Positions 12,206-33,040 of a DNA stretch of 36,095 nt are shown here, piece by piece. The DNA is taken from NCBI RefSeq assembly GCF_000820725.1, contig NZ_CCXH01000027.1, positions 1 through 36,095 of the forward strand. The letters run 5' to 3'. A program made the translations under genes and the position numbers. This DNA is from Actinomyces polynesiensis. Its GTDB lineage: Bacteria; Actinomycetota; Actinomycetes; Actinomycetales; Actinomycetaceae. The notes under the pieces are model-generated. The model saw only the letters and a program-made list of their open reading frames with translations. It did not search any database and was not told the DNA's origin. Position 1 is the stretch's first letter. Each line of letters opens with the position of its first letter.

Positions 12206-13528
12206 GTGAGACCAGGACCACCGAGCCCGAGCCCGGACCGGGAAGCGGGACCCGCCGGCCACTACCACGACGGCGGACACTACGGCGCCCACGACCGGGC
12301 CCGCTTCGTCACCGAGAGCCCCAAGAACCCGGCCCGCACCGACTTCGAGCGCGACCGCGCCCGCGTGCTCCACTCCTCAGCGCTGCGGCGCCTCGGCGCG
12401 AAGACCCAGGTCCTGGGACCCTCCTCCGACGACTTCGTGCGCACCCGCCTGACGCACTCCCTGGAGGTCGCCCAGGTCGGTCGCGAGCTCGGCAAGGAAC
12501 TCGGGGCCGACCCCGACGTGGTGGACGCCGCCTGCCTCTCCCACGACCTGGGCCATCCCCCCTTCGGGCACAACGGTGAGCGCGCCCTGGACGAACTCGC
12601 CGCGGACGCCGGCGGCTTCGAGGGCAATGCGCAGACCCTGCGCATCGTCACCCGACTGGAGCCGAAGGTCCTCACCCCCGAGGGGACGCCGGCCGGCCTC
12701 AACCTCACCCGCGCCACGCTGGACGCCATCGCGAAGTACCCCTGGCTGCGCGGCCAGGGTCCCGATCCAGTCAAGTCCTCCCACAAGTACGGCGTGTACG
12801 CGGAGGACGCGGAGGTCTTCGCGTGGATGCGCCAGGGGGCGGTGCCCGGCAGGCGCTGCCTGGAGGCCCAGATCATGGACCTCTCCGACGACATCGCCTA
12901 CAGCGTCCACGACGTGGAGGACGCGGTGGCGACCGGCAAGATGGACCTCTCCCGCCTCACGACCGACACCGAGACCGAGGCCGTCATCGCCTCCACCCTC
13001 GAGTGGTACGGGCCCTCGGTGGGGGCCGACGAACTCGGGACGGCGATCGAGCGCCTGGTGTCGATGCCCGCGTGGCTGCACTCCGACTCCGGCTCCTACG
13101 CGGACATGGCCCACCTCAAGGACATGACCAGCCAGCTCATCGGCCGGTTCTGCTCCGCCACCGTGATGGCCACCCGCCGGACCTTCGGGGACGGGCCGCT
13201 GGGCCGCCACGGCGCCGACCTGGTGGTCCCCGGGGACACCCGCGCCGAGATCCAGGTCCTCAAGGGGATGGCGGTGCACTACGTCATGAGCCCCCGGGAG
13301 ACCGAACCCGTCTACCTCCACCAGCGGACCCTCCTCGCCGACCTCGTCGATGCCCTCCACGAGGCCGGACCCGCCGCGCTCGAGGAACCCTTCGCCACGG
13401 ACTGGCGCCAGGCGGAGGGGGAGGCCGGCAGGGTCCGGGCGGTCATCGACCAGGTCGCCACCCTCACCGATCCCTCGGCCTCGCGGCTGCACGCCCGGCT
13501 GTGCGGGATGCTCTCCACCCAGTTCTGA
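12206..13528 (+). CDS. dgt: Deoxyguanosinetriphosphate triphosphohydrolase-like protein
   Basis: A 440-aa HD-domain dNTP triphosphohydrolase, which releases tripolyphosphate from dNTPs. Metal ligands are visible as RTRLTHSLEVAQVGREL (His), CLSHDLGHPPFGHNGE (HD pair) and MDLSDDIAYSVHDVEDA (Asp). The upstream FERDRARVLHSSALRRLGAKTQV is typical of the dGTPase family type 2. The C-terminal half (LLADLVDALHEAGPAAL) is the usual helical extension. It lies just before dnaG, a pairing common in actinobacteria that links dNTP control with replication. The GTG start appears leaderless. Confidence 0.9.
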   Translation: MRPGPPSPSPDREAGPAGHYHDGGHYGAHDRARFVTESPKNPARTDFERDRARVLHSSALRRLGAKTQVLGPSSDDFVRTRLTHSLEVAQVGRELGKELGADPDVVDAACLSHDLGHPPFGHNGERALDELAADAGGFEGNAQTLRIVTRLEPKVLTPEGTPAGLNLTRATLDAIAKYPWLRGQGPDPVKSSHKYGVYAEDAEVFAWMRQGAVPGRRCLEAQIMDLSDDIAYSVHDVEDAVATGKMDLSRLTTDTETEAVIASTLEWYGPSVGADELGTAIERLVSMPAWLHSDSGSYADMAHLKDMTSQLIGRFCSATVMATRRTFGDGPLGRHGADLVVPGDTRAEIQVLKGMAVHYVMSPRETEPVYLHQRTLLADLVDALHEAGPAALEEPFATDWRQAEGEAGRVRAVIDQVATLTDPSASRLHARLCGMLSTQF

Positions 13529-13551
13529 GATCCCACCGGGGGGCGCCCGGT

Positions 13552-13572
13552 CCCGCCCTCGTCCGCGGCGGG
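13552..13572 (+). terminator. Hairpin after dgt
   Basis: CCCGCC (13552-13557) pairs with GGCGGG (13567-13572) across 9 nt, 24 nt after the dgt stop. The 177-bp dgt-dnaG gap otherwise holds one GCCCTCGT copy (13555) and the dnaG -10. Confidence 0.4.
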
Positions 13573-13692
13573 ATGGCCCCTCCCCGCCTCGCTCCCCGCC
13601 CCGCCCGGGAGGAGCACCCACCCGAGGGACCCCGCCTGTTCGCCGGTGGCGCAGGCGCCTGGGGACGCCCACTGGACGGGGTGGGCTGCGCA

Positions 13693-13698
13693 TAGACT
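13693..13698 (+). promoter_or_regulatory. -10 box for a leaderless dnaG transcript
   Basis: TAGACT ends 7 nt before the ATG at 13706, and no ribosome site is present. Confidence 0.5.
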
Positions 13699-13705
13699 GG
13701 TCGCC

Positions 13706-15697
13706 ATGGCTGGCCTGATCCGACGCGAGGACATCGCGGCCGTGCGCGAGGCCTGCCGGATCGAGGAGATCGTCGGGGAGCACGTCGCCCTGCGCACCGC
13801 CGGTGTCGACTCCCAGAAGGGACTGTGCCCCTTCCACGACGAGCGAACCCCGTCCTTCCACGTCCGCCCCGCAGTCGGCCTGTGGCACTGCTTCGGGTGC
13901 GGCGAGGGCGGGGACGTCATCAGCTTCGTCCAGAAGATCGACCACCTCTCCTTCTCCGAGGCCGTGGAGATGCTCGCCCAGCGCGCCGGCGTCACCCTGC
14001 ACTACGAGGAGGGCGGGCGCCAGGTCCGCAGCGAGGAGCCCGGCCGGCGCCAGCGCCTCCTCGACGCCCACCGCGTCGCCGAGGAGTACTACCAACAGCA
14101 GCTCGCCAGCCCCGAGGCCCACGTCGGCCGCGCCTTCCTGGCGGGGCGGGGGTTCACCGAGGCCATGAGCCGGCACTTCGGCGTGGGGTACTCGCCGAAG
14201 GGCTGGGACCACCTCACCCGCCTGCTGCGCTCGAGGGGCTTCACTGATGCCGAGATCCAGGCCGCGGGACTGGGATCGCAGGGCAGCCGCGGCGTCTACG
14301 ACCGGTTCCGCGGGCGCCTGATGTGGCCCATCCGCGACATCACGGGCGCCACCGTCGGGTTCGGCGCGCGCAGGCTGGACGAGGACGAGGACTCACCGAA
14401 GTACCTCAACACCCCCGAGACCGCGATCTACAAGAAGTCCCAGGTCCTCTACGGTCTGGACCTGGCCAAGAGGGACATCACCCGCCAGCGACGCATCGTC
14501 ATCGTCGAGGGCTACACCGACGTCATGGCCGCCCACGTCGCGGGGGAGACGACCGCCGTGGCCACCTGCGGCACCGCCTTCGGCTCGGACCACGTCCGCA
14601 TCGTGCGCCGCCTGCTCGGCGACGCGGCGGACCCGGCCGCCGGGGTGGTCCTCTCCTCGGGACGCGCGCGCGGCGCGGAGGTCATCTTCACCTTCGACGG
14701 CGACGCGGCGGGGCGCACGGCGGCGCTGCGTGCCTTCCACGAGGACCAGAACTTCGCCTCCCAGACCTTCGTCGCGGTGGAGCGCACGGGCCTGGACCCC
14801 TGCGACCTGCGCATGCAGCGCGGTGACCAGGCGGTGCTCACCCTGGTCGCCTCGCGCACCCCGCTCTTCGAGTTCGTCATCCGCTCGGTGCTCTCCCAGG
14901 TGGACCTCGACACCGCCGAGGGTCGTGTGGCGGCACTGCGCGGCGCCGCCCCCGTCGTGGCGGGCATCAAGGACCGCGCGCTGCGCCACGAGTACACCCG
15001 CTCCCTGGCCGGCTGGCTCGGCATGGAGCAGGGCGAGGTCACCCGCGCGGTGCGCCAGGCCGAGTCCCACCGGGGACGTCCCGGGGACGAGGGCGGACGC
15101 GTCCAGCCCGACCGGGCGGGCGGACCCGAGCCCATGGCCGGGGCGGGTCTGCCGGGAGGCATCGTGCGACGTGGTCCCGAGGATCCCGTCACCAAGGTCG
15201 AACGCCAGGCCCTGGAGGCACTGCTGCAGCGCCCCATGGACCTCATCGGCTCGGGATTCGAGGACCTCGACGGGGCCTCCTTCACGGTGCCCGCGCACCG
15301 CGCCGTCCACGACGCGGTGCGCGCCATCGGCGGGCTCGACGCCTTCGCCGAGATGCTCAAGCAGGCCGAGGCCACCCTCGGCGTGGGCGAGGAGTCCGAG
15401 GCCGCGGCCACCCGGCACTTCGACGAGGCCGTGCGCGAGTCCGCCGGGGAGGTGGTCGGTGACGTGGTCACCGAACTGGCGGTCGCACCCCTGCCCCAGG
15501 ACAAGCCGGGTGGGATGCGCGCCTACTCCCGCGGCGTCATGGGGGCGCTGGTGCGCATGGACCTCACGCGGCGCACCGGGGACGTCCGTGCCTCTCTCCA
15601 ACGCATGGATCCCGATGACCCGGACTACTCGCGCACCTTCACCGAACTCATGAAGCTCGAGCAGAGGCGCCGGGCCTTCTCGGAGGCGCAGCAGTAG
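13706..15697 (+). CDS. dnaG: DNA primase
   Basis: A 663-aa primase that makes RNA primers for replication. The N-terminal CHC2 zinc finger is CPFHDE...WHCFGCGEGGD (residues about 41-66). The catalytic core follows with YSPKGWDHLTRLL and FRGRLMWPIRD, and then the TOPRIM domain with VIVEGYTDVMAAH (Glu) and FTFDGDAAG (DxD-type metal ligands). The C-terminal part (from about residue 490) is the variable helicase-interaction region with a Gly/Pro/Arg-rich linker; one ACGAGGGC copy is translated there. Length is normal for actinobacteria. The ATG at 13706 fits both the MAGLIRREDI start and the -10 spacing. Confidence 0.95.
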   Translation: MAGLIRREDIAAVREACRIEEIVGEHVALRTAGVDSQKGLCPFHDERTPSFHVRPAVGLWHCFGCGEGGDVISFVQKIDHLSFSEAVEMLAQRAGVTLHYEEGGRQVRSEEPGRRQRLLDAHRVAEEYYQQQLASPEAHVGRAFLAGRGFTEAMSRHFGVGYSPKGWDHLTRLLRSRGFTDAEIQAAGLGSQGSRGVYDRFRGRLMWPIRDITGATVGFGARRLDEDEDSPKYLNTPETAIYKKSQVLYGLDLAKRDITRQRRIVIVEGYTDVMAAHVAGETTAVATCGTAFGSDHVRIVRRLLGDAADPAAGVVLSSGRARGAEVIFTFDGDAAGRTAALRAFHEDQNFASQTFVAVERTGLDPCDLRMQRGDQAVLTLVASRTPLFEFVIRSVLSQVDLDTAEGRVAALRGAAPVVAGIKDRALRHEYTRSLAGWLGMEQGEVTRAVRQAESHRGRPGDEGGRVQPDRAGGPEPMAGAGLPGGIVRRGPEDPVTKVERQALEALLQRPMDLIGSGFEDLDGASFTVPAHRAVHDAVRAIGGLDAFAEMLKQAEATLGVGEESEAAATRHFDEAVRESAGEVVGDVVTELAVAPLPQDKPGGMRAYSRGVMGALVRMDLTRRTGDVRASLQRMDPDDPDYSRTFTELMKLEQRRRAFSEAQQ

Positions 15698-22421: not shown

Positions 22422-22673
22422 ATGAAGAAGATCGCCTTCCTGTCCTTCGGGCACTGGAGCAACAGCCCCGGATCCCGGGTGCGCACCGCGGCCGATGCCC
22501 TGACGCGGTCCGTCGAGCTGGCCGAGGCCGCGGAGGAGGTGGGGGCGGACGGCGCGTTCTACCGCGTCCACCACTTCGCCCGCCAACTGGCCTCCCCGTA
22601 CCCCCTGCTGGCCGCCGTCGCCGCACGCACCTCGCGCATCGAGATGGGCACCGGCGTCATTGACATGCGCTAG
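22422..22673 (+). pseudogene. Luciferase-like flavin monooxygenase, N-terminal part (interrupted)
   Basis: Encodes 83 residues beginning MKKIAFLSFGHWS and ending MGTGVIDMR before a TAG created at the junction with the integrated element. The family (LLM, F420- or FMN-dependent) normally continues RYxNPLxxAEE, and exactly that text resumes at 32270. Together the two parts give a 339-aa protein with no frameshift. The ATG at 22422 has GGGAGGGA upstream. The fragment alone lacks most of the barrel and should not be active. Confidence 0.9.
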
Positions 22674-22696
22674 CGCATGCCTGGGTTGTAGCACCC
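22661..22696. other. attL of the integrated element
   Basis: The common core ATGCGCTA lies at 22665-22672, with host sequence to its left. A perfect 16-bp palindrome, CATGCGCTAGCGCATG, spans 22664-22679. The element arm GGTTGTAGCACCC lies at 22684-22696, exactly 12 nt from the centre of the palindrome. Confidence 0.8.
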
Positions 22697-22810
22697 GTTG
22701 TCAGTGTCGGCGCGCTCTACAGCACAACGTTGACGACAATCCTGGCTGGTTTTCGATGAAAGCGGCTCTTCCTGCGCTGAGCGTCGGTGCGATGATCGCG
22801 TGCTCCACCC
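22674..22810. other. Left end of the element, no gene
   Basis: 137 bp with visibly lower GC than the host. It contains the attP arm and no convincing reading frame on either strand. Confidence 0.5.
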
Positions 22811-23113
22811 TCATAGAGGCGCATCGAGTACTTCGCGCAGCTGATCGACGGTGGGCGAACCAGCCAGCCCGGCAGGAGTGCGGAACACTCGACAGGCAAG
22901 CCCCACCGGCGTGTGCTCGTCGGCGAAGGGGTCGGAGCCGTCAATGAGGACGGTCGGGGACCCGTGGAACCCGAGGCGGGCGGCGTCCTCGGCGGTCTCG
23001 ACTCGCTGATGCGCGACGCGGACGTCCGATCGGCCGTCGAGGGCCTCGGCGAGCCGCCGGTCGAGCACCTCCCAGTTCGGGCACCCGTCGAAGTACTGCA
23101 ACGTGATCTCCAT
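22811..23113 (-). CDS. Small thioredoxin-fold protein of the metal cargo
   Basis: A 100-aa protein starting MEITLQYFDGCPNWEVLDRRL. The FDGCPNW motif after the first strand, FHGSPTVLIDG (cis-Pro loop) and the length match small thioredoxin-like proteins often found beside mercury and other heavy-metal genes. Only one Cys is in the active-site loop; another is in LACRVFR. The ATG has GAGAGGAG upstream, and the gene starts 12 nt after the ATPase stop, so it is the last gene of the cargo operon. Its role may be metal or thiol handling; the substrate is unknown. Confidence 0.7.
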   Translation of the reverse strand: MEITLQYFDGCPNWEVLDRRLAEALDGRSDVRVAHQRVETAEDAARLGFHGSPTVLIDGSDPFADEHTPVGLACRVFRTPAGLAGSPTVDQLREVLDAPL

Positions 23114-23125
23114 GATCCACTCCTC

Positions 23126-25087
23126 TCAATCTCTGTCCGCGCGGACCGTGGCCGGTGACGCCGTCTCAGGCGACACAGCCGCCGCCGGGCGCTTGGCACG
23201 CGCGGCGCGCAGCCCGTTGGCGATGACGACGAGCTCGGCGACCTCGTGGACGAGGACGACCGCGGCCAGGCCGAGCACGCCGGTGATGGCCAGCGGCAGC
23301 AGCACGGTGATGATCGCCAGGGACAGCACGATGTTCTGGTTCATGATCGCCCGGCCACGGCGGGCGTGCCGCAGCGCCTGCGGGATCAGGCCGAGGTCGT
23401 GGCCGGTGAAAGCGACGTCGGCGGACTCGATCGCGGCGTCGGAGCCGGTCGCGCCCATCGCGATGCCGACGGTCGCACCGGCCAGGGCGGGGGCGTCGTT
23501 GATGCCGTCGCCGATCATCGCGGTGGGCGAGGCCCCGGAGAGCTGGGCGACGATGCGGGCCTTGTCCTCGGGCCGCAGCTCGGCGTGCACGTCGCCGATC
23601 CCGGCGATCTGCGCGAGCGCGTGCGCGGTGCGGGCGTTATCGCCGGTGAGCATGCTCACCTCGACGCCCTGGGCCCGCAGCGTGCGCACGACCTCGGGGA
23701 CCTCGGGGCGCAGCTCATCGCGGACGCCGATCGCCCCGGCCAGCTGGCCGTCGACAACCACGAGCACGCAGGTCTGGCCCTCGGCCTCCAGGTCCTCGAC
23801 CCGGGCCTTGAGCGGCCCCGCATCGATCCAGCGGGGGCTGCCCACCGTCACCCGGCGGCCGTCGACCAGGCCGCCGATGCCGTGCCCGGCCTCCTCCGTC
23901 ACGTCCTGCGCGGCGGGGGCTCCCTTGCCCGCGGCGGCGATGGCGGCGGCCAGCGGGTGCGTGGAGTGCTGCTCGACGGCGGCCGCCCAGGCGAGCACCT
24001 GGGCGTCGTCGAACCCGTCGGCGGCGACGACGGCGGTGACCTCGGGCCGGTTGCGGGTCAGGGTGCCGGTCTTGTCCACGGCGAGGTGGCGGATGCCGCC
24101 GAGGCGTTCGAAGGCGGCCCCGCTCTTGATGACGACGCCGAACTTCGTCGCGGCCCCGATCGCGGAGACCACGGTGACGGGCACCGCGATCGCCAGCGCG
24201 CACGGGCTGGCCGCGACGAGGACGACCAGGGCGCGGGTGATCCAGGTCTCCGGGTCCCCGAGCAGCGAGCCGAGCACGCCGACCAGGACGGCGAGGACCA
24301 TCACGCCGGGTACCAGCGGGCGGGCGATCCGGTCGGCGATCCGGGCCCGTTCGCCCTTCTCGGCCTGGGCCTGCTCGACCAGCTCCACGATGGTGGTCAG
24401 CGAGTTGTCGGTGCCCGCCGCGGTCGCCTCGACCTCCAGCACACCGGCGGTGTTGATCGCGCCCGCCGAGACCGCGTCATCGAGGGCGACCTCGACCGGG
24501 ATCGACTCGCCGGTGATCGCCGCGGTGTCCAGACTGGAGCGACCGGACCGGACAATCCCGTCGGTAGCGACCCGCTCGCCGGGGCGGACCAGCAGCACGT
24601 CGCCGACGGCGATCTCCTTGGCCGGGACCTCGACCGAGGCACCGTCGCGCAGCACGGTCGCAGTCTCCGGCACGAGCTTCAGCAGCGCGCGCAGGCCGCC
24701 ACGGGCGCGGTCCATCGCCTTGTCCTCCAGTGCCTCGGCGATCGAGTAGAGGAACGCCAGCGCGGCTGCCTCCTCCACGTAGCCGAGGATCACCGCGCCG
24801 ACGGCGCTGATCGTCATCAGCAGCGCGATCCCCAGCTTCCGCCTGACGATCAGGTTCCGCAGCGCGCCGGGCACGAACGTGTACGCGCCCAGCAGCAGGC
24901 CCGCCCAGAACGCGACCAGCGCCGCGAGGTGCAGCCCCGACCACTCCAGCACCAGGCCGGTGCCGAACGCGACGCCAGAGAGGATCGGCACCACCAGTCC
25001 CGGGTCGCGCCACCACGGGCTCTCGGCCTCCTCGGCCTCTTCGGCGGCGCTGGTGGTCGGCTCGTCGCAGCCGCAGGCGGCGCTCAC
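23126..25087 (-). CDS. P1B-type heavy-metal-exporting ATPase with an SPC motif
   Basis: A 653-aa membrane pump. It has a short Cys-containing N-terminus (CGCDEP) and no HMA domain. Then come TGES (about 192), the membrane motif SPCALAIAVPV (about 294), the phosphorylated Asp in DKTGTLT (about 338) and the hinge GDGINDAPALA. The last membrane region ends HEVAELVVIANGLRAAR. SPC rather than CPC, together with a His-Glu near the end, places it with P1B-4 pumps (Co, Zn, Cd, Fe). The neighbouring Cd/Pb-type sensor argues for Cd or Pb export. The GTG at 25087 overlaps the cmtR-like stop (GTGA). A reading back to 25816 is antisense shadow of the mob gene. Confidence 0.88.
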   Translation of the reverse strand: MSAACGCDEPTTSAAEEAEEAESPWWRDPGLVVPILSGVAFGTGLVLEWSGLHLAALVAFWAGLLLGAYTFVPGALRNLIVRRKLGIALLMTISAVGAVILGYVEEAAALAFLYSIAEALEDKAMDRARGGLRALLKLVPETATVLRDGASVEVPAKEIAVGDVLLVRPGERVATDGIVRSGRSSLDTAAITGESIPVEVALDDAVSAGAINTAGVLEVEATAAGTDNSLTTIVELVEQAQAEKGERARIADRIARPLVPGVMVLAVLVGVLGSLLGDPETWITRALVVLVAASPCALAIAVPVTVVSAIGAATKFGVVIKSGAAFERLGGIRHLAVDKTGTLTRNRPEVTAVVAADGFDDAQVLAWAAAVEQHSTHPLAAAIAAAGKGAPAAQDVTEEAGHGIGGLVDGRRVTVGSPRWIDAGPLKARVEDLEAEGQTCVLVVVDGQLAGAIGVRDELRPEVPEVVRTLRAQGVEVSMLTGDNARTAHALAQIAGIGDVHAELRPEDKARIVAQLSGASPTAMIGDGINDAPALAGATVGIAMGATGSDAAIESADVAFTGHDLGLIPQALRHARRGRAIMNQNIVLSLAIITVLLPLAITGVLGLAAVVLVHEVAELVVIANGLRAARAKRPAAAVSPETASPATVRADRD

Positions 25088-25452
25088 GAGGCGTCCCCCG
25101 AGCCGGTCGCGGCGCAGCAACCGGGCACCGAGCAGTGCGGGTCGATGCACGGCGCGCTCTCGTCCACCGCGAGCGTGACGTCCACCAGCGCCGTCAGCGC
25201 CGCCGCGAGGTGCGGGTCGGCGATCTCGTAGCGGGTCTGGCGGCCCTCGGGCTCGGCGACCACGATCCCGCAGTCGCGCAGGCAGGTCAGGTGGTTCGAC
25301 ACGTTCGAGCGCGTCAGCCCCAGCTCGCGCGAGAGCACGGCGGGGTGGCTCGGGCCGTCGAGCAGGGACATCAGGATCCGGGAGCGCGTCGGGTCCGCCA
25401 TGGCCCGACCCAGCCGGTTCATGACGTCGAGGCGCGAAGCAATGGTCAGCAT
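25084..25452 (-). CDS. cmtR: ArsR/SmtB-family Cd/Pb sensor, CmtR-like
   Basis: A 122-aa winged-helix repressor. The start RLGRAMADPTRSRILMSLLDG and the recognition region LGLTRSNVSNHLTCLRDCGIV closely follow mycobacterial CmtR. The three thiolates that bind Cd/Pb in CmtR (Cys57, Cys61, Cys102) fall here at exactly residues 57, 61 and 102. The C-terminal tail has extra cysteines (PHC, GCC) that could bind further metal. It should leave DNA when Cd or Pb binds and so switch on the downstream pump. It is cotranscribed with the ATPase. Confidence 0.88.
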   Translation of the reverse strand: MLTIASRLDVMNRLGRAMADPTRSRILMSLLDGPSHPAVLSRELGLTRSNVSNHLTCLRDCGIVVAEPEGRQTRYEIADPHLAAALTALVDVTLAVDESAPCIDPHCSVPGCCAATGSGDAS

Positions 25453-25489
25453 ACACTGAACTATACAGCGCGGACTGACCTATCGTCCA
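25450..25489 (-). promoter_or_regulatory. Promoter/operator of the metal-resistance operon, probably leaderless
   Basis: On the minus strand TATAGT (25460-25465) is followed by 7 nt and then the ATG at 25452, with no ribosome site. ATACA occurs twice, at 25451-25455 and 25463-25467, 12 nt apart, overlapping the -10 and start. This is a good place for the CmtR-like repressor to bind. Confidence 0.5.
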
Positions 25490-25539
25490 GTAGCAGGGCT
25501 GCCGCACGCGCTCCGCGCGCTTGCCCTCGGGAATCACGG
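25490..25539 (-). terminator. GC-rich hairpin between mob genes and cargo
   Basis: CGCGCT/GCGCGCG-type inverted sequence around 25507-25521 could fold just after the MobB-like stop, separating the mob transcript from the cargo promoter. The stem is imperfect. Confidence 0.25.
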
Positions 25540-26445
25540 TCACCTCTTGCGCCAGCTCGGCCACGTCGACATCCCGCGACCCTTCCACGTCTCCACAAGA
25601 CCGGCGGCCCACCGGACGGACGCGAAGAGCCCGTAGCCGGCCCCGGCGAGGCCAGCGCCTACCACGAGCCACCGCCCGATGCCGAGCCACACGCTCCCGT
25701 CCACGTCCAGTGCCCACTGAGCACCCGTGATGAGCCCGGCGATGCCCATCCAGAGCCCGGCGACGACGACCACCACCGGCAGGAGGGCGAGGCACATCGC
25801 GGCGGCGGCCGACCACAGCTGACGGGCCTCCAGCTTCGAGGTGGCGGCGATGATCCGCTCGGCCCGTTCGTTCGACGCGTCGAGGTTCGCGGGCATCGTG
25901 GTCGACGCCTCTCCGGTGACCTGCTCGACGGCCTTCTGGACCCGCTCCTCGATGTGCTTCTCGATCCGTTGGACCGCCCCGCCGACCTGGCTGACGAGGT
26001 TCTGGTTCGCCGCGGCCTGCGCCTTGAGCCCCTCAATCGCCGATGCCGTAGCCGCGTGATTCCTCTGCGCCTCCGCGACCAAGCTCTGCGACGCGGCGTT
26101 CAAGCCCTCGCCGTTGAGACTCTGCGCGAACTCGCCGAGCGTGCTCGCGATCTCGTTCTGCCTGCTCTCGATACTCGCGATCCTCGCGGACACGTCGTTG
26201 GAGAGCGAGGAGGTCGACGCCGGGGCCGTGATCCGCTCCAGCCGCGTCGTCGTCTCCTCGTCCATGACCTTCACGAACCCCGCGAGCTTCTTCTGCTGCT
26301 CGGCCAGCCGGTCGAGCCTCGCGTTCTGCGCCTCGACGGCGGCGAGGATCGAGGTCAACGCCTCCATCGTCTCCGGACTGTCGAGCTGCTGCTGCGATCC
26401 GCTCTGCGCGTTCTGCTGCTTCAGCCTGTCGAGCGCTGCGCTCAT
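25540..26445 (-). CDS. MobB-like membrane mobilization protein
   Basis: A 301-aa protein. The N-terminal about 180 residues are polar, Gln/Ala/Glu-rich and probably coiled coil. They are followed by two membrane segments (SAAAAMCLALLPVVVVVAGLW and IGRWLVVGAGLAGAGYGLFA) and a short basic tail. The ATG at 26445 has GGAGGAG upstream. The first 413 nt overlap the 3' end of the relaxase gene in another frame. This nested layout and the membrane anchor recall MobB of RSF1010-type plasmids, which helps bring the relaxosome to the secretion channel. Sequence homology to MobB itself is not evident, so the role is inferred. Confidence 0.65.
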   Translation of the reverse strand: MSAALDRLKQQNAQSGSQQQLDSPETMEALTSILAAVEAQNARLDRLAEQQKKLAGFVKVMDEETTTRLERITAPASTSSLSNDVSARIASIESRQNEIASTLGEFAQSLNGEGLNAASQSLVAEAQRNHAATASAIEGLKAQAAANQNLVSQVGGAVQRIEKHIEERVQKAVEQVTGEASTTMPANLDASNERAERIIAATSKLEARQLWSAAAAMCLALLPVVVVVAGLWMGIAGLITGAQWALDVDGSVWLGIGRWLVVGAGLAGAGYGLFASVRWAAGLVETWKGRGMSTWPSWRKR

Positions 26446-27319
26446 GTTCCTGCTCCTCCTGCTGCTGGTGGTAGTCGAAGAACGCCCGCGCGCCCTCCGG
26501 GGTGAAATCTGTCGAGAGCGCACTCGTGCGCTTGCGTCGCTCGGCACGCCCGGACTCGCCGCGGCGGTCCTCGATGTAGAGCGTCCACGTCTCCTTGCCG
26601 ACGTTCTTCCCTCGCTTGCTGATGGCGGTGTGGAGGCGCATCCGCGGCACCGGCTCCCCGTCGTCGCCGAGCTGCTGGTTCTGCTCCGCGATCACCGCTT
26701 CGAGACCGGCCTTGTCCGTCGCGCGGGGATCGGCCAGGGCGGCGCTCATCCGGTCGCCCATCTCGCGGTCGAGCCCACCCTCGGTGAAGTCCTCGCGGCG
26801 CAGCTCCCAGTCCTTCGGCGCGTGCTCCAGCCGCTTCACGACCGAGAGCCCGTGCTCGCGCATCAGCTCATCGTTCGCCGACTGCACGCCCTTCTGATTC
26901 CCGGCCTTGCGGTCGTGGAACGTGCGATAGTCCGAGAGCGCCTTTCCCGTGCGGTTGTTGTGATTGAGAACCAAAATATGGTTGTGCGGCTTCTTTCCCC
27001 GCCCATCCACATGACTGACGACGAGGCAGTCGGAATCCGGGTGCATCTTCTTCGCGAGCTGATAGCCCAGATCGTTCACCCGCTGCACGTCCTCCGGATT
27101 CTTCGGGTCAAACTCCTCATCGCTGAACGACTGGCGGTAATGAAGCGCCTCGACCTCGCGCGTTGTGTTCTGCGTAAGCGCCCGAGCGCGCGCCGAGAAC
27201 GCGCCGGGGCCTCCCGGCACATCGCACGTGATCGCGACGCCCCGCTCGTCCTCCTTGCCACGGATATAGCGCTCGGTGTCGGCGGCGCTGGCGCTCGGGC
27301 TGTAGTGCGTCGTGCTCAC
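26033..27319 (-). CDS. MOBP-like relaxase (MobA/VirD2 family)
   Basis: A 428-aa DNA-nicking protein. The N-terminus has MSTTHYSPSASAADTERYI (candidate nicking Tyr), LHYRQSFSDEEF, and the metal-binding motif SHVDGRGKKPHNHILVLN (H-x-D...HNH). A middle region includes LREHGL-like MREHGLSVVKR and the late part is highly charged, including a Glu/Gln/Arg coiled region. The final about 138 residues are read from DNA that also encodes the MobB-like protein. The GTG at 27319 overlaps the MobC stop (GTGA). It would nick oriT and lead one strand into a recipient using a helper transfer system. Confidence 0.8.
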   Translation of the reverse strand: MSTTHYSPSASAADTERYIRGKEDERGVAITCDVPGGPGAFSARARALTQNTTREVEALHYRQSFSDEEFDPKNPEDVQRVNDLGYQLAKKMHPDSDCLVVSHVDGRGKKPHNHILVLNHNNRTGKALSDYRTFHDRKAGNQKGVQSANDELMREHGLSVVKRLEHAPKDWELRREDFTEGGLDREMGDRMSAALADPRATDKAGLEAVIAEQNQQLGDDGEPVPRMRLHTAISKRGKNVGKETWTLYIEDRRGESGRAERRKRTSALSTDFTPEGARAFFDYHQQQEEQEHERSARQAEAAERAERIAAAARQSGDDGGVDLDPRRRRGAEREARPAGRAAEEARGVREGHGRGDDDAAGADHGPGVDLLALQRRVREDREYREQAERDREHARRVRAESQRRGLERRVAELGRGGAEESRGYGIGD

Positions 27320-27906
27320 GAGGCCGTCCGATCCCCGAGCAGCGCGCGGACCTCGCGCAGCAGCTCGATCAGCTCGGGCACGTCCGCCGACAGCGCCACC
27401 GCTTCACCGGCCCGCGCGCGGCGGTCGAGGTCATTAACGTTGATCGCCAGCGGGCGGATCTGCGCGGCCAGTTCCCGAGCGTCCGCCGACGCCTGCACGC
27501 TCGACTCGACGCCGAGCAGGTGCGCGGCCACGGCGGCGTCCAGCTCCTCGCTCCGAGAGGCGTGGAGGGCATCCCGGACGACGGTCCGCACCCACGTGCT
27601 CGGAGCCAGCCCGAGCCGCTTCGCACGAGTGCGAAGCGCCGCGAGCGTGGCCTCTCCGAAGTCGGTATCGAGCTTCGCGCGGCCCCCACGACGACGCTTC
27701 GCGCCGCCGTGACTCTGACGCACAGCCTCCGCATCAGCCCGACCGGTGTTCACCTGGGAGTCGGTCTGCTGCTCCACCTGTACGCCAGAGTGGCAAGCAG
27801 TAGCCGTGTCGGACATTTCGCTGACGCTCATGTCCTCCCCGGCTGCTTGCGAGGGGCCTCCGGCCCCCTCGACCCCCTGGAACTGCCCATCGAGTTCGGT
27901 GCTCAT
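27316..27906 (-). CDS. MobC-like relaxosome accessory protein
   Basis: A 196-aa protein. After an acidic, unconserved N-terminus (about 70 residues) comes a basic stretch AKRRRGGRAKLD and a ribbon-helix-helix-like region (TLAALRTRAKRLGLAPSTWVRTVVRDAL). The C-terminal RPLAINVNDLDRRARAG...LLREVRALLG resembles the MobC tail (IGNNLNQIAR-like). Such proteins bind oriT and help the relaxase nick. The ATG at 27906 has GGGAGG upstream and overlaps the Rep stop (ATGA). Confidence 0.75.
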   Translation of the reverse strand: MSTELDGQFQGVEGAGGPSQAAGEDMSVSEMSDTATACHSGVQVEQQTDSQVNTGRADAEAVRQSHGGAKRRRGGRAKLDTDFGEATLAALRTRAKRLGLAPSTWVRTVVRDALHASRSEELDAAVAAHLLGVESSVQASADARELAAQIRPLAINVNDLDRRARAGEAVALSADVPELIELLREVRALLGDRTAS

Positions 27907-30149
27907 GCCGCACCTCCCGCGACCAGCAGACCGCCGTTCGCGCGGAGCCGCGCGATCTTCGCGTCCAGCGCCTTCTGCTTCGCCTCGGCGCGGCGCTGGC
28001 GCTCGTCCTCTGAGAGCGCCGGGCACTCATCTCCGTGCCTCGCGTAGACGCCCGCCTGCGGCGTCGCGCAGGTGCAGAGCTTCAGCTCACGGTTGTGCTC
28101 CTCCAGCTCGGCGAGCCGCCTGCGCTGCTGCTCCTCGACGACCTCACGGTCACGCTTCGCCGCCTCCTCTGCGGCGGCGATCTCCTCAGCGCTCGGCTGG
28201 ATCGGCTGGCCGACTCCAGCGAACTCTGCGAACAGATCGGCCCCCTCGATCGGGTCCAGCTCGGGACGGGTGATCCGGTCGTGCTGCTCGACGATCGGAG
28301 CGACCGTGCGCGCCTCGATCTCACCGCGCACGCGCTCCCGCTCCGCGGTGTCCTTGATCGCCTTGCACCTGCGGGCCAGCAGTTCGAGGTCCTGGCGCAT
28401 GTGCTCGTACCGCTCGTAGCTCTGGTACTCGCGGGTGCCGTTGAGCACGCCGGAGTTCACGAAGATCGAGAACTCGCGCTCGGCGACCGGGATGATCACC
28501 GGGAAGCGGCGGAACCCCTGCCCGAGGTTCTCCGCCTCGTGCTTGACCCGCACGCCGCCTTGCATCGACTCGTACTCGCCCGCCAACCCCCGCAGGAACT
28601 CCTCGTAGTCCTGAGGGCCGGTGACGATATTCACCCGGTTCAGCAACTGCGTCTTCGAGTTCTTGATGTTGACGATCGGCTTCTCGTCCGCTTCGCGCCA
28701 CGGGCCCAAGATGCGGAAGAGCATGCCACGACTCTTCGCCGTGCGGATCATGTCGCCCACTCGCATGTCTTCCCAGATCACGACCGGCTCAGCGTCGTAC
28801 CCCTCCCATGAGACGTTGTCGCCGCCGACCTTGAAGTAGGGCCGTTCGGCGTCCGGAGCGAGCGCCCGAGCGAGCGCCTTCGCGAGCAGATCCTTACCCG
28901 TGCCGCCCTCGCCGAACACGTAGAAGTTCATGACCGACTCCGGCGCGTCCTGGTACGCGAGGTAGTCGCCGCGCAGCTTCTGGAAGTGCGCGAGGTTGCC
29001 CTTCGCGAAGTAGATCGCGGGCTCCTGGTCGCGGACCTGCTTGAGCGTCAGCGTCCCCTGGCCCACGGCCTGGAAGAGCTTGCTGAGCTTCGCCCCAGTA
29101 CCGCCTTCGGCGGCGTCGTGTCGGGTAGCCATGTGGGCGTCCAGTGAAGCGCTGAAGTCGAAGTTCGCGACTACCCGGCCGCGCCCGTACTGGTACTTTC
29201 CAGGCTGCCCCTGCTGCGACTTGTCGACCAGATAGTGGCGATCTGGATGATGAATGCCGACGATGCCCGATGCGCCCCGCGTCTCGTGGCAGAGGTACTC
29301 GCAGAGGTCGTAGAACGCCTTCTCCGCCGCGCCACGGCCAGCGTTCTTCTCGATCTCGTCGACCTCATTAGGCACCCGCACCCGTGGCGACGGAACGGTG
29401 AGCGCGTCGGACACCGTTCGGACCGTGGGACGCGGCCCATCAATGTCCTTGAACCACAGAACGATGTGGACGTGCAAGCCCTTGAGCCCGCAGCAGACCA
29501 TCTCGGTCGTGCCCTCGTCGACCTCCACGAGACGATCGCTGTCGTGCCAGATGTAGGCCCACCTGTACAGACGATCAGCGAGTGCCGCGAGACCTTCGTC
29601 GAGCTGTTCCTGAGTGAAGATCACCTCGCCCGTCTCCGGGTGCTGGTGATACTGCATCACACTGATCACCCGCGAAACCTTGCGAGCACGCTTCTTCTGA
29701 TCGGCGCTCTCTGAGGCTTTCACCGAAGCGAAGAACGCCTTTGCCTCGGCGATCTGAGCGGGCGTGGACTCTACGACGAACGGCGCGACGTCATCGCTGG
29801 GATCGGCTCCCGGCACGTCCAGCTCGGCGAAGTCCACGCTTGCAACCGAGGTAGGCGCCGATGCATCCGTTTCCGAAACGGATGCGCGGCCACCCAAGGA
29901 GGGCCGCGCATGCTGATCGGCGTTAATTCCCTGGTCAGAGCTGGGATCGACGGTCGCCTCGGAGTCGTCGGGGTCGGTCTGTGCAGCCGTATAGCCGTTT
30001 CCTGCGAAATCGTCCTCGACGGTGAGAACCGGGTTCTCACCGCTCGGAACGGCACCGGGCAGCCCGCCTGCGGCGGGTGCCAGGTCAGGCCCTCCGGGCG
30101 GGGTCAGGTCGGCGGGGACGATGGTGATGGTGCGGTCGGCGGTGCTCAT
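27903..30149 (-). CDS. Replication initiator with HUH nuclease and SF3-type helicase domains
   Basis: A 748-aa protein. Residues 1-130 are Pro/Asp-rich and unstructured. Residues about 155-330 form a rolling-circle nuclease: VISVMQYHQHP, the metal motif LHVHIVLWF (His226 and His228), and candidate nicking tyrosines Tyr280 and Tyr285 in FYDLCEYLCHE. Residues about 370-560 form a helicase with Walker A GEGGTGKD (413-420), Walker B VVIWEDM and a sensor strand NIVTGPQD. The C-terminus is charged coiled coil with a CTC...DEC cysteine cluster. This domain order is known from CRESS-DNA viruses and the related bacterial pCRESS plasmids. The start overlaps the preceding gene (ATGA). Confidence 0.85.
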   Translation of the reverse strand: MSTADRTITIVPADLTPPGGPDLAPAAGGLPGAVPSGENPVLTVEDDFAGNGYTAAQTDPDDSEATVDPSSDQGINADQHARPSLGGRASVSETDASAPTSVASVDFAELDVPGADPSDDVAPFVVESTPAQIAEAKAFFASVKASESADQKKRARKVSRVISVMQYHQHPETGEVIFTQEQLDEGLAALADRLYRWAYIWHDSDRLVEVDEGTTEMVCCGLKGLHVHIVLWFKDIDGPRPTVRTVSDALTVPSPRVRVPNEVDEIEKNAGRGAAEKAFYDLCEYLCHETRGASGIVGIHHPDRHYLVDKSQQGQPGKYQYGRGRVVANFDFSASLDAHMATRHDAAEGGTGAKLSKLFQAVGQGTLTLKQVRDQEPAIYFAKGNLAHFQKLRGDYLAYQDAPESVMNFYVFGEGGTGKDLLAKALARALAPDAERPYFKVGGDNVSWEGYDAEPVVIWEDMRVGDMIRTAKSRGMLFRILGPWREADEKPIVNIKNSKTQLLNRVNIVTGPQDYEEFLRGLAGEYESMQGGVRVKHEAENLGQGFRRFPVIIPVAEREFSIFVNSGVLNGTREYQSYERYEHMRQDLELLARRCKAIKDTAERERVRGEIEARTVAPIVEQHDRITRPELDPIEGADLFAEFAGVGQPIQPSAEEIAAAEEAAKRDREVVEEQQRRRLAELEEHNRELKLCTCATPQAGVYARHGDECPALSEDERQRRAEAKQKALDAKIARLRANGGLLVAGGAA

Positions 30150-30394
30150 CGGGCACCGCCCTTGCGGTAGCGCTTGATCGCGGCCTGGTGCGTGACGCCG
30201 AGGGCATCGCCGATCTTGGCCCAGGTCACCCCATCGGCGCGGGCATCGGTGACGGCGATCTCGACGGCCTCCTCCAGCACGGAGCGGAGCACTCCAAGGT
30301 CGTAGACACGGGCCTCGGAGTCGGTGAGGGAGGGGTCGCCCAGACGCCAGCGGAACGCGTTGACGTGATCGAAAGCAGCGGAGTTGGCGCTCAT
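30146..30394 (-). CDS. Small helix-turn-helix protein
   Basis: An 82-aa protein ending DGVTWAKIGDALGVTHQAAIKRYRKGGAR, a clear helix-turn-helix of the sigma-region-4/antitoxin-like kind with a basic recognition helix. It lies directly upstream of rep with overlapping ATGA and follows another small gene with a one-base overlap. It may control the rep-mob operon or plasmid copy number. No closer family is recognised. Confidence 0.7.
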   Translation of the reverse strand: MSANSAAFDHVNAFRWRLGDPSLTDSEARVYDLGVLRSVLEEAVEIAVTDARADGVTWAKIGDALGVTHQAAIKRYRKGGAR

Positions 30395-30606
30395 CAGCGA
30401 TCACCGCCCATCACGGCGGCGACGGCGGCGCGCTGGCGCGGGGTCAGTGGCGTGAGTGCCAGGCGCTCACCGGCCCGGCGACCGGCGGCACGGGCGGCGG
30501 CGATGACGGGATCGAACCCATCAGCCTGCGAAACGGGGGTCGGGTCCTGGTCGAGCCCAGGATGGTCCAGCGCAAATGCGCGGGGAGCGTCGATAACGAC
30601 AGACAT
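30394..30606 (-). CDS. Small protein of unknown function, first gene of the rep-mob operon
   Basis: A 70-aa protein, Ala/Arg-rich in its second half (FDPVIAAARAAGRRAGERLALTPLTPRQRAAVAAVMGG). TPRQRAAVAAVM could form a short helix-turn-helix. The ATG has GAGGA upstream and the stop overlaps the next start by one base, which supports it being real. I do not recognise the family. Confidence 0.6.
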   Translation of the reverse strand: MSVVIDAPRAFALDHPGLDQDPTPVSQADGFDPVIAAARAAGRRAGERLALTPLTPRQRAAVAAVMGGDR

Positions 30607-30788
30607 CGGAAGTCCTCAAACATGAGTGTGCTTCCGGTTCCCCGCCACGGTAGTTGGGCTGTTTGACCGGCGACTCATCCGGGAGTAGTACCGCCAGCTT
30701 CAAAGTCTGGCCCCCGGTGGGATCTTCTTGTCTGCAACCATTCTCCCATGACTCGACTCACCAGTCCACTGACGAGTCGACTCGCGTG
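30607..30788. promoter_or_regulatory. Non-coding region between recombinase and rep operon
   Basis: 182 bp with no gene. GACTCG (30750-30755) and CGAGTC (30773-30778) are inverted, and GAGTCGACTC (30775-30784) is a perfect 10-bp palindrome; further GACTC/GAGTC copies lie within 40 bp. This may be a repressor site, the recombinase terminator, or part of a replication origin, and must also hold the promoter of the rep operon. Confidence 0.4.
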
Positions 30789-32225
30789 TCAGTCGCGACG
30801 CGGCTCTATTCGAATGAGGTCGGGGTCGAACTTCACGTGGCCGGGAGCGATGGGCTCGATGGTCACCGTCACCAGCTCGTCCACGAGCATCCGGCGACGG
30901 TCCACGTCCAACGCCCTCCACTTCGACTCGACGACCTCTCGGCGCTCCGCGGTACCGACCGGCTCGTCCACGTCCGCGAGCAGCTTCGCCGCCACCGACA
31001 CCGAGCGGTCGAGCAGCTCCGCGTCGATCTCGTCGATGCGGGCCTTCACGTCGTTGATCGCCGCGGTGATCTCCAAGACCGGCTGGTGGATGTCTCGCAG
31101 CAGCGGGCTCAGTTCCTTCACGCGCACGACCAGGGCGTTCCGCTCGGTCAGCAGCTCCTCGCGGTCCGGCCCGTCGTCCTCCTGCGCCATCACGAGGTCG
31201 TGTACGTCCACCGAGGACAGTCGGGTGAGCACCGCCTCGGTGACCATCGCATCGACGGGCTCGCGCTGGCGGGTGAGGTGGAACTGCTCGCCGCAGCGGT
31301 ACGTCGGCTGCTTGCGGCTGTTCGTCCCCGAGACGAGCGTCGCGCCGCACTTCCCGCACAGCCCGATCGTGGACAGGAGGTACTTCGGCTGGTTGCCCTG
31401 TCTCGCCGACCTCCGCACGTTGTCCTCCAGCTTCGCCACCGCAGCCCGCCACGTCTGCTCGCCGACGATGGGCGGGAACGCCCCGCCATGCACCGGGTAC
31501 AGCTCGCCGGAGGCGTAGTGCTTGATGTAGCCAGCGTAGAGCGGGTTCGCCAGCAGGTACCGCACGGCATCGACGGAGAACTCCGACCCGCGCGCGGTGA
31601 GGTGTCCGGCCTTGTTCAGGTCCTCGCGGATGCGCCGGATCGACAGCGACGGCTCGCCGAGGAACGCGTCGAAGGCCCGCCGTACGGCGTCGGCCTCCTC
31701 CTCGATCACCTCGCCCTCCCTCGTCCAGCCGAACGCCTTCCAGGTGGACGCCGGGATGCCCTCGGCGCGGCGGCGCTCGTTCGACCTGATCTGGCGCTCA
31801 GCCTTGCGCCGGGCCTCGAACCGGGCGAGCGCGGCGAGCATCGTCGCCCGGAACTCGCCGTCAGCCGTAGAGAGGTCGATCTCGCCGTCCACTGTGACGA
31901 CGCGCAGGCCGAGGTCGATCAGTGTGTTCAGGTCTTTCGTGCTGCGCAGGAGGCGGTCCATGTCCACGGCGACGACCATCGAGAAACGGCCCGCGCGGGC
32001 GTCGTCCAGCATCTCGGCCCACCGGGTGCCAGCGCGGCGCTTCTTCGTCGCCGACACCGCGTTGTCGTCGTAGACCTCGACCACGTTCCAGTCCTTGGCC
32101 TCGGCCAGCGCCCTGATCTTCCGCAGCTGGGTCTCGACGGTCCACCGGTCGCCCTTACGGTCCATCGAGGCGCGGACGTATGCGGCGACGTCGTTCGTCT
32201 TCCTGAGCGATACCAGTTCAACCAT
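30789..32225 (-). CDS. Large serine recombinase (integrase)
   Basis: A 478-aa site-specific recombinase. The catalytic domain has AAYVRASMDRKGDR with nucleophile Ser20, and VVAVDMDRLLRSTKDLNTLID with the active-site Arg residues. The recombinase domain follows (AFGWTREGEVIEEEADAVRRAF, LLANPLYAGYIKH). A zinc ribbon (CGKCGATLVSG...YRCGEQFH) and a coiled coil (REELLTERNALVVRVKELSPLL) come next, as in phage-type serine integrases. The ATG at 32225 lies 21 nt from the attachment-site arm, the normal position for an integrase gene. It would insert and, with a directionality factor not seen here, excise the element. Confidence 0.93.
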   Translation of the reverse strand: MVELVSLRKTNDVAAYVRASMDRKGDRWTVETQLRKIRALAEAKDWNVVEVYDDNAVSATKKRRAGTRWAEMLDDARAGRFSMVVAVDMDRLLRSTKDLNTLIDLGLRVVTVDGEIDLSTADGEFRATMLAALARFEARRKAERQIRSNERRRAEGIPASTWKAFGWTREGEVIEEEADAVRRAFDAFLGEPSLSIRRIREDLNKAGHLTARGSEFSVDAVRYLLANPLYAGYIKHYASGELYPVHGGAFPPIVGEQTWRAAVAKLEDNVRRSARQGNQPKYLLSTIGLCGKCGATLVSGTNSRKQPTYRCGEQFHLTRQREPVDAMVTEAVLTRLSSVDVHDLVMAQEDDGPDREELLTERNALVVRVKELSPLLRDIHQPVLEITAAINDVKARIDEIDAELLDRSVSVAAKLLADVDEPVGTAERREVVESKWRALDVDRRRMLVDELVTVTIEPIAPGHVKFDPDLIRIEPRRD

Positions 32226-32245
32226 GCAACCAAGCTTACGTGAAC

Positions 32246-32271
32246 GGGTGTTGCAACCACGATATGCGCTA
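32246..32271. other. attR of the integrated element
   Basis: The arm GGGTGTTGCAACC (32246-32258) is followed by the core ATGCGCTA (32264-32271) and then host sequence in frame with the monooxygenase. The arm matches the inverted attL arm at 11 of 13 bases, at the same 12-nt distance from the centre. Confidence 0.8.
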
Positions 32272-33040
32272 CGAGAACCCCCTCTACGCCGCCGAGGAGG
32301 CGGGGGCGACGGACCTCATCAGCGGGGGCCGTCTGCAGCTGGGCATCAGCCGCGGCTCACCCGAGCAGGTCGTGGACGGGTACCGGTACTTCGGCCACGT
32401 CCCACCCGAGGGCGCCACGGATGCCGACATGGCACGCCAGAACACGGCGACCTTCCTGGAGGTCATCCAGGGACGCGGCTTCGCCCAGCCGAACCCGCGT
32501 CCCATGTTCCCCAACCCACCGGGTCTCCTGCGCATCGAGCCCCACTCCGAGGGACTGCGCAAGCGGATCTGGTGGGGGGCCGGGTCACGTTCCACCGCGG
32601 AGTGGACGGCGCGCCAGGGCATGAACCTCATGAGTTCGACGCTGCTGACCGAGGACACCGGCGTGCCCCTGCACGTCCTCCAGGCCGAGCAGATCCGCCT
32701 GTTCCGGGAGGCGTGGGAGGAAGCCGGGTGGGACTGGGAGCCGCGCGTGTCCGTCTCGCGCAGCATCTTCCCCGTGGTGTCGGACCTGGACCGTGCCTAC
32801 TTCGGCGGGCAGCGCACCGACGAGGACCAGGTCGGGTACCTCGACGGGGGGAACGCCCGCTTCGGGCGCAGCTACATCGGGGAGCCCGAGCAGCTGGTGA
32901 GCGAGCTCGCCGAGGACGAGGCGATTGCCGAGGCGGACACCCTCATGCTCACCGTTCCCAACCAGTTGGGGGTGGAGTACAACGCCCACCTGCTCGGGAC
33001 CGTCGTGCGGGAACTGGCACCCGCGCTCGGTTGGCGCTGA
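32270..33040 (+). pseudogene. Luciferase-like flavin monooxygenase, C-terminal part (interrupted)
   Basis: Resumes the protein cut at 22670 with YENPLYAAEEAGATDLISGGRLQLGISRGSPEQ, the typical LLM continuation, and ends ELAPALGWR. It supplies 256 of the 339 residues, including most of the flavin barrel (WWGAGSRSTAEWTARQGMNLMSS). A GTG at 32240 inside the element could start a run-on product with eight foreign residues, but the N-terminal flavin-binding part would be missing. Confidence 0.9.

Follow-up and report, generated by a model that had tools for sequence, protein, structure and literature searches.

The large serine integrases of phages A118, Bxb1, phiC31 and TP901-1 combine a Resolvase with a Recombinase domain, act on a pseudo-palindromic attP and cross over within 2 bp. 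The cores of Bxb1, phiC31 and TP901-1 are asymmetric. The native A118 core is GG; it fixes the direction of insertion and, as stated by the authors in the accessible portion of the A118 work, it alone sets orientation. When A118 cores were made symmetric in the laboratory, the same portion reports productive synapsis in both parallel and antiparallel alignment and recombination in both orientations. In the available part of a model paper, attP and attB are able to synapse equally well in either alignment. The serine-recombinase integrative mobilizable elements (IMEs) of Firmicutes (the Tn4451 group and the streptococcal IMEs in rumA) carry an integrase and their own relaxase, have no transfer channel and split a dispensable gene at a fixed site, according to the accessible sections of a review (PMC5704250) in which the term 'orientation' is absent. 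AICEs are integrated, self-replicating actinobacterial elements, with serine recombinases in 19 of 144 according to the available part of the source. The Rep of integrated pCRESS plasmids (pCRESS4-8, YLxH supergroup) combines the HUH, YLxH and Walker A motifs; neither 'integrase' nor 'serine recombinase' appears in the accessible text of the pCRESS paper.

The locus compared with these systems lies in a window (the whole stretch of DNA analysed, 36,095 nucleotides of Actinomyces polynesiensis contig NZ_CCXH01000027.1), in which an element of 9,599 bp interrupts a luciferase-like monooxygenase (LLM) gene. Its features, and those of the gene, are as follows.

22422..22670, plus strand: 5' part of the split LLM gene in the joined frame (83 codons, then a TAG from the element arm)
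22665..22672, plus strand: left ATGCGCTA copy (crossover TA at 22671-22672)
22673..22694, plus strand: left element arm, one dyad half of the rebuilt attP
22811..23113, minus strand: DF-family protein of 100 aa (NF049942, 62.1 bits, below the cut-off of 70)
23126..25816, minus strand: open frame with a cadmium-type P-ATPase (TIGR01512, over the cut-off; the ATPase match covers residues 331-872)
25084..25452, minus strand: CmtR, Cd(II)/Pb(II) sensor (NF047906, over the cut-off)
25540..26547, minus strand: conserved ORF overlapping the relaxase gene, start uncertain (relatives in other elements; no Pfam match)
26033..27319, minus strand: MobA/VirD2-type relaxase (PF03432)
27316..28026, minus strand: conserved ORF adjoining the relaxase gene, start uncertain (relatives of 69-94% in other elements; no Pfam match)
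27903..30404, minus strand: Rep with HUH (HVH), YLxH and Walker A motifs (PF00910; ORF overlapping the HTH gene, with an uncertain start)
30146..30394, minus strand: HTH protein of 82 aa (PHROG 686 HTH, E 2.6e-07; weak in Pfam, E 0.0037)
30789..32225, minus strand: serine integrase of 478 aa (PF00239, PF07508; PHROG 95 integrase; YVRAS at residue 16)
32247..32269, plus strand: right element arm, other dyad half of the rebuilt attP, beside the integrase start
32264..32271, plus strand: right ATGCGCTA copy (crossover TA at 32270-32271)
32264..33040, plus strand: 3' part of the split LLM gene in the joined frame (258 codons and stop; PF00296)

Read leftwards from the right end, the genes of the element are all on the minus strand, in the order integrase, HTH, Rep, ORF, relaxase, ORF, CmtR, P-ATPase and DF-family protein. 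The integrase has an N-terminal resolvase domain (PF00239, residues 13-156) followed by a recombinase domain (PF07508, residues 175-269), both over the cut-off, which is the layout of a large serine integrase. The Ser of its YVRAS motif is taken to be the catalytic one. A zinc ribbon with four metal-binding residues is usual in this class; here it is not plain, because only three cysteines are present (at 290, 293 and 311), and no separate domain match was obtained. Among solved structures the best match was the TP901-1 integrase (residues 12-138). Assignment to CcrB, the recombinase of SCC, was rejected, since the likeness to its NCBIfam model is weak (NF047343, 91.2 bits, far under the cut-off of 900). 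In the Rep, HVH is at residue 311, YLCH at 370 and GEGGTGK at 498, so that an HUH nuclease with YLxH accompanies an SF3 helicase (PF00910) as in pCRESS4-8, a likeness by motifs. The HTH protein is a candidate repressor or directionality factor, and the true start of the P-ATPase is probably well inside its open frame.

No transfer-channel family was found among the nine element proteins scanned with Pfam and NCBIfam profiles; elsewhere in the genome, a T4SS coupling-protein match was found on contig C302. With an integrase (PF07508), a relaxase of its own (PF03432) and no transfer-channel family in these nine proteins, the element looks like an IME by its gene layout. The relaxase would borrow the transfer channel of a helper, and the Rep would replicate the excised circle. 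The layout and the splitting of a gene at a fixed site are as in the IMEs of Firmicutes, from which the element differs in host phylum and target gene. Like AICEs, it is integrated in an actinobacterium and presumably replicates itself; unlike them, it has no TraB-type transfer gene among the proteins scanned and does have a relaxase. Gene content varies within the family. In a related element (L066), the Rep (12422-13840, in place of 27903-30404 in the window) is of another type (PF01719 and PF00910), with YLxH in both Reps, and integrase, relaxase and site are retained. The cargo of L066 (16571-18487) is a pyridine-nucleotide oxidoreductase, presumably a mercury reductase, and a MerR-type regulator in place of the cadmium-type genes.

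ATGCGCTA occurs in exactly two copies in the window, at 22665 and 32264, with a spacing of 9,599 bp. When the flanks were joined, a single frame of 339 codons was obtained, beginning at 22422 and closing with a stop codon whose last base is 33040. In a profile search the right half matched PF00296 (luciferase-like monooxygenase); its score against NCBIfam TIGR04027 was under the cut-off. Searches of the genome for a further copy of either half, the left by DNA (E 0.001) and the right by protein (E 1e-30), found none. Relatives were sought in 148 genomes, the window's genome included, giving an LLM match in 56 and an integrase match in 20 (E 1e-30 or better). Both halves were contiguous and in frame in 27 of 29 LLM loci of relatives, the exceptions being cut by a contig end (L006) or interrupted by element sequence (L030), and the 5' part of the split gene was homologous to the 5' part of the intact genes, again at 27 of the 29. 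In genome G014, listed as the same genus, the LLM gene is unbroken, and to its left and right the flanks of the window align collinearly at 84-91%. The joined relatives and the unbroken gene of G014 in the same gene order thus establish that the splitting is real and derived. This confirms the first-pass annotation, in which a 9.6-kb element had been read as splitting a flavin monooxygenase gene and the joined sides as one 339-aa LLM-family protein. The counter-case it named, in which relatives would have the two genes apart and never an intact one, is excluded by the intact genes of relatives and by the differing occupancy of the site from genome to genome. An apparent second copy of the LLM 5' part inside some elements was an artefact of the L030 query, which contained element sequence; the search was repeated after removal of L030.

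Named genomes were scanned for relatives of the integrase, and 53 loci were obtained, most of them at 92-96% identity (lowest 70-73%). With the window and five further loci, 59 distinct loci were compared, two of 61 initial junction sequences (L056 and L060) having been dropped as coming from the same genomes as L084 and L110. Eight loci were assigned by hand (L055, L096, L105, L109, L115, L073, L108 and L114). Orientation A is that of the window, with the 3' part of the gene beside the integrase, and B is the reverse. The element was in the LLM gene, at the same codon, in 49 loci (30 A, 19 B) and beside a re-completed LLM gene in five (four A-type, one B-type); three had a non-LLM junction and two (L072 and L113) were cut by a contig end. 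The LLM half starts 39 bp from the integrase start in most of the 59 loci. The family is spread over 28 named genera and 14 named families (group codes excluded). Three non-LLM junctions among 59 mean that the LLM site is preferred, not absolute: a non-LLM gene is at the integrase end in L108, in L114 (presumably of the amino-acid permease kind) and in L073 (with repeats that we take to resemble FG-GAP repeats), the last with LLM at the far end. Since no LLM match was found within about 1.5 kb on each side of the more distant integrases (32-39% identity, 15 loci, L040-L054), the site rule is shown for the near family only, at about 70% identity and up. No relative was confirmed in the IMG/VR scan, and in plasmid and phage records all matches were under 60%. 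Among 394 genomes drawn from the class, the carriers were the window's genome and G483 only. The integrase is in two frames in G483 and in L112 (a B locus).

The crossover was placed by comparing junctions. At the 3'-half end, TA is part of the codon that served for placement, so the other end is the independent check. Unrepaired sequence at both ends was read in 37 loci (24 A, 13 B), and every one of them has TA at each end; L058-L061 and L110 are not in this set, their near junction being re-completed. In L074, the host has A flanking TA on both sides and the element has C on both, so that the shared stretch is exactly TA. The whole 8-bp repeat was therefore ruled out as the crossover, gene and element of L074 sharing TA only; its other six bases are a likeness between element arm and gene. 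The duplicated sequence, which had been taken to mark the crossover, does hold it and is longer than it. Two further expectations of the first-pass annotation stood: the target lies in the conserved RYxNP motif, the TA being the first two bases of its Tyr codon, and related elements land in the same gene family, as the 49 loci show. All 28 relatives in which that Tyr codon is readable have TAC or TAT. The rebuilt attP is near-palindromic, with GCGC-TA-GCGC at its centre, 18 of 24 positions symmetric and the dyad centre within TA. The attB consensus is asymmetric (GTCATCGACATGCGC-TA-CGAGAACCC) and spans the codons for VIDMR-Y-ENP. The junctions point to a 2-bp core common to attP and attB. In orientation A, the 5' part of the LLM gene is ended by a TAG supplied by the element arm; in B it is likewise TAG-ended for elements whose near arm begins with G. 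Judged from the junction sequences, a crossover of 2 bp and insertion in both orientations go beyond the earlier annotation.

The share of B (19 of 49) gave a binomial p of 0.15, the loci being non-independent. Among whole elements whose alignment covers above 90% of the shorter member, twelve A/B pairs were at least 99.35% identical. In the closest pair, identity was 99.95% over 8,577 bp (3 mismatches, one gap) between L065 (Gulosibacter, B) and L066 (Tessaracoccus, A); between L093 (Glutamicibacter, B) and L111 (Janibacter, A) it was 99.86% over 9,133 bp (13 mismatches). A tree of 49 integrase genes, 45 of them labelled (28 A, 17 B) and truncated integrases left out, required at least 14 changes of orientation, of which well-supported branches force 12. 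With the labels shuffled, the mean was 13.3 changes, and 399 of 500 shuffles were as low; orientation does not cluster on the tree. More distant members are also found both ways (L101 and L104 in A; L057 and L105 in B). All seven Brevibacterium loci (L075, L078, L079, L091, L095, L097 and L103) are in A, either by bias or by chance, and B occurs in many other genera.

Several loci depart from the simple arrangement. A duplicated half has restored a complete LLM gene next to the element in L058, L059, L061 and L110 (Schaalia group) and in L115 (Actinomyces oris); the duplicates are 89-98% alike over about 310 bp in the Schaalia group and 92% over 916 bp in L115. The N-terminal part of the integrase is lost at these re-completed loci, which are seen in both orientations. 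Such loci suggest that the enzyme is under selection and that the element is stranded. In genome G071, two tandem elements (L055 and L116) are in a single LLM gene, and where they meet the order is that of attP, far arm-TA-near arm. In L117 (G143), element genes facing both ways lie between two LLM parts. The contig of L120 (G033) begins at residue 5 of the LLM 3' part, and this gene may be occupied too. The contig of L072, from a Brachybacterium MAG, begins exactly at the near-arm TA, which may reflect mixed junctions in the sample or assembly only.

The insertions in the LLM gene very probably arise from action of the integrase at a palindromic TA, either way round. The serine integrase would insert the IME into the LLM gene by joining the near-palindromic attP to attB, with the crossover at the TA that opens the Tyr codon. 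Because this TA is palindromic, either alignment in synapsis would leave ends that can be rejoined, and the element could enter either way round; both orientations are apparently found because the core reads the same on both strands. Two-way insertion is what a natural TA core predicts by analogy with the symmetric cores of A118. We infer that this integrase is the catalyst and that the palindromic core is the cause of the two orientations. Counting against this account are the three non-LLM junctions, the uniform orientation in Brevibacterium, the three-cysteine integrase and the two-frame integrase of L112.

Other explanations were weighed against the same data. That two neighbouring genes merely resemble the halves of a gene that was never one has nothing in its favour and virtually no probability, being already refuted by the joined gene in 27 of 29 relatives and by G014, which has it in the same gene order. 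It is highly improbable that the orientation of integration is fixed and that elements were reversed by homologous recombination between repeats or element copies. That two copies can share one genome is shown by the tandem arrangement in G071, and exchange between copies could account for L073, whose two ends adjoin LLM and a different gene; against this, none of the 25 longest of 102 inverted pairs listed for the window joins both ends of the element, and the arms switch exactly at TA in both orientations.

An unlikely course, which a palindromic core also allows, is one-way insertion followed by inversion in place through antiparallel attL x attR recombination. It would yield the same junctions as reversed insertion, with the same dependence on TA, and both courses would be compatible with orientations mixed on the tree. 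However, it requires an excision-type activity without excision, and attL x attR recombination by integrases generally depends on a directionality factor. The opposite-orientation elements are, moreover, in different hosts, which fits separate insertions. Two-way insertion is favoured over flipping after insertion, the present data being alike for both.

The enzyme is likely to be a natural direction-blind integrase, whose TA core would be held by an invariant Tyr codon, whose orientation would be effectively random and which may also flip its element in place. The TA opens a Tyr codon that is invariant in the relatives read, so the target protein would keep the core in place while the surrounding codons vary. 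The integrase shares its domains, a pseudo-palindromic attP and a 2-bp crossover with the phage enzymes; unlike the GG of A118, its core is palindromic and both orientations are found. Membership of the large serine integrases rests on domains, an asymmetric core being a feature of the studied members. Neither a natural palindromic-core serine integrase nor this element family was found in the literature searched, which consisted of the accessible parts of mostly open-access journal articles; such a core was not found in the available text of PMC10083194, PMC3783163, PMC3556126, PMC6668415, PMC3218068, PMC5704250, PMC12904643, PMC13044945 and PMC10669575. Set against this literature, the novelty of a natural palindromic-core integrase is provisional.

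That the orientation of serine integrases is set by nothing but the central two base pairs is a rule based, in the accessible portions of the sources, on cores altered in the laboratory. This element family looks like a natural experiment on that rule, with 49 insertions at one codon and near-identical elements both ways round, and it adds a new attP/attB pair whose core is known. The part that matters would be orientation-blind insertion at a codon fixed by the protein it encodes, a landing site occupied in 28 named genera of 14 families.
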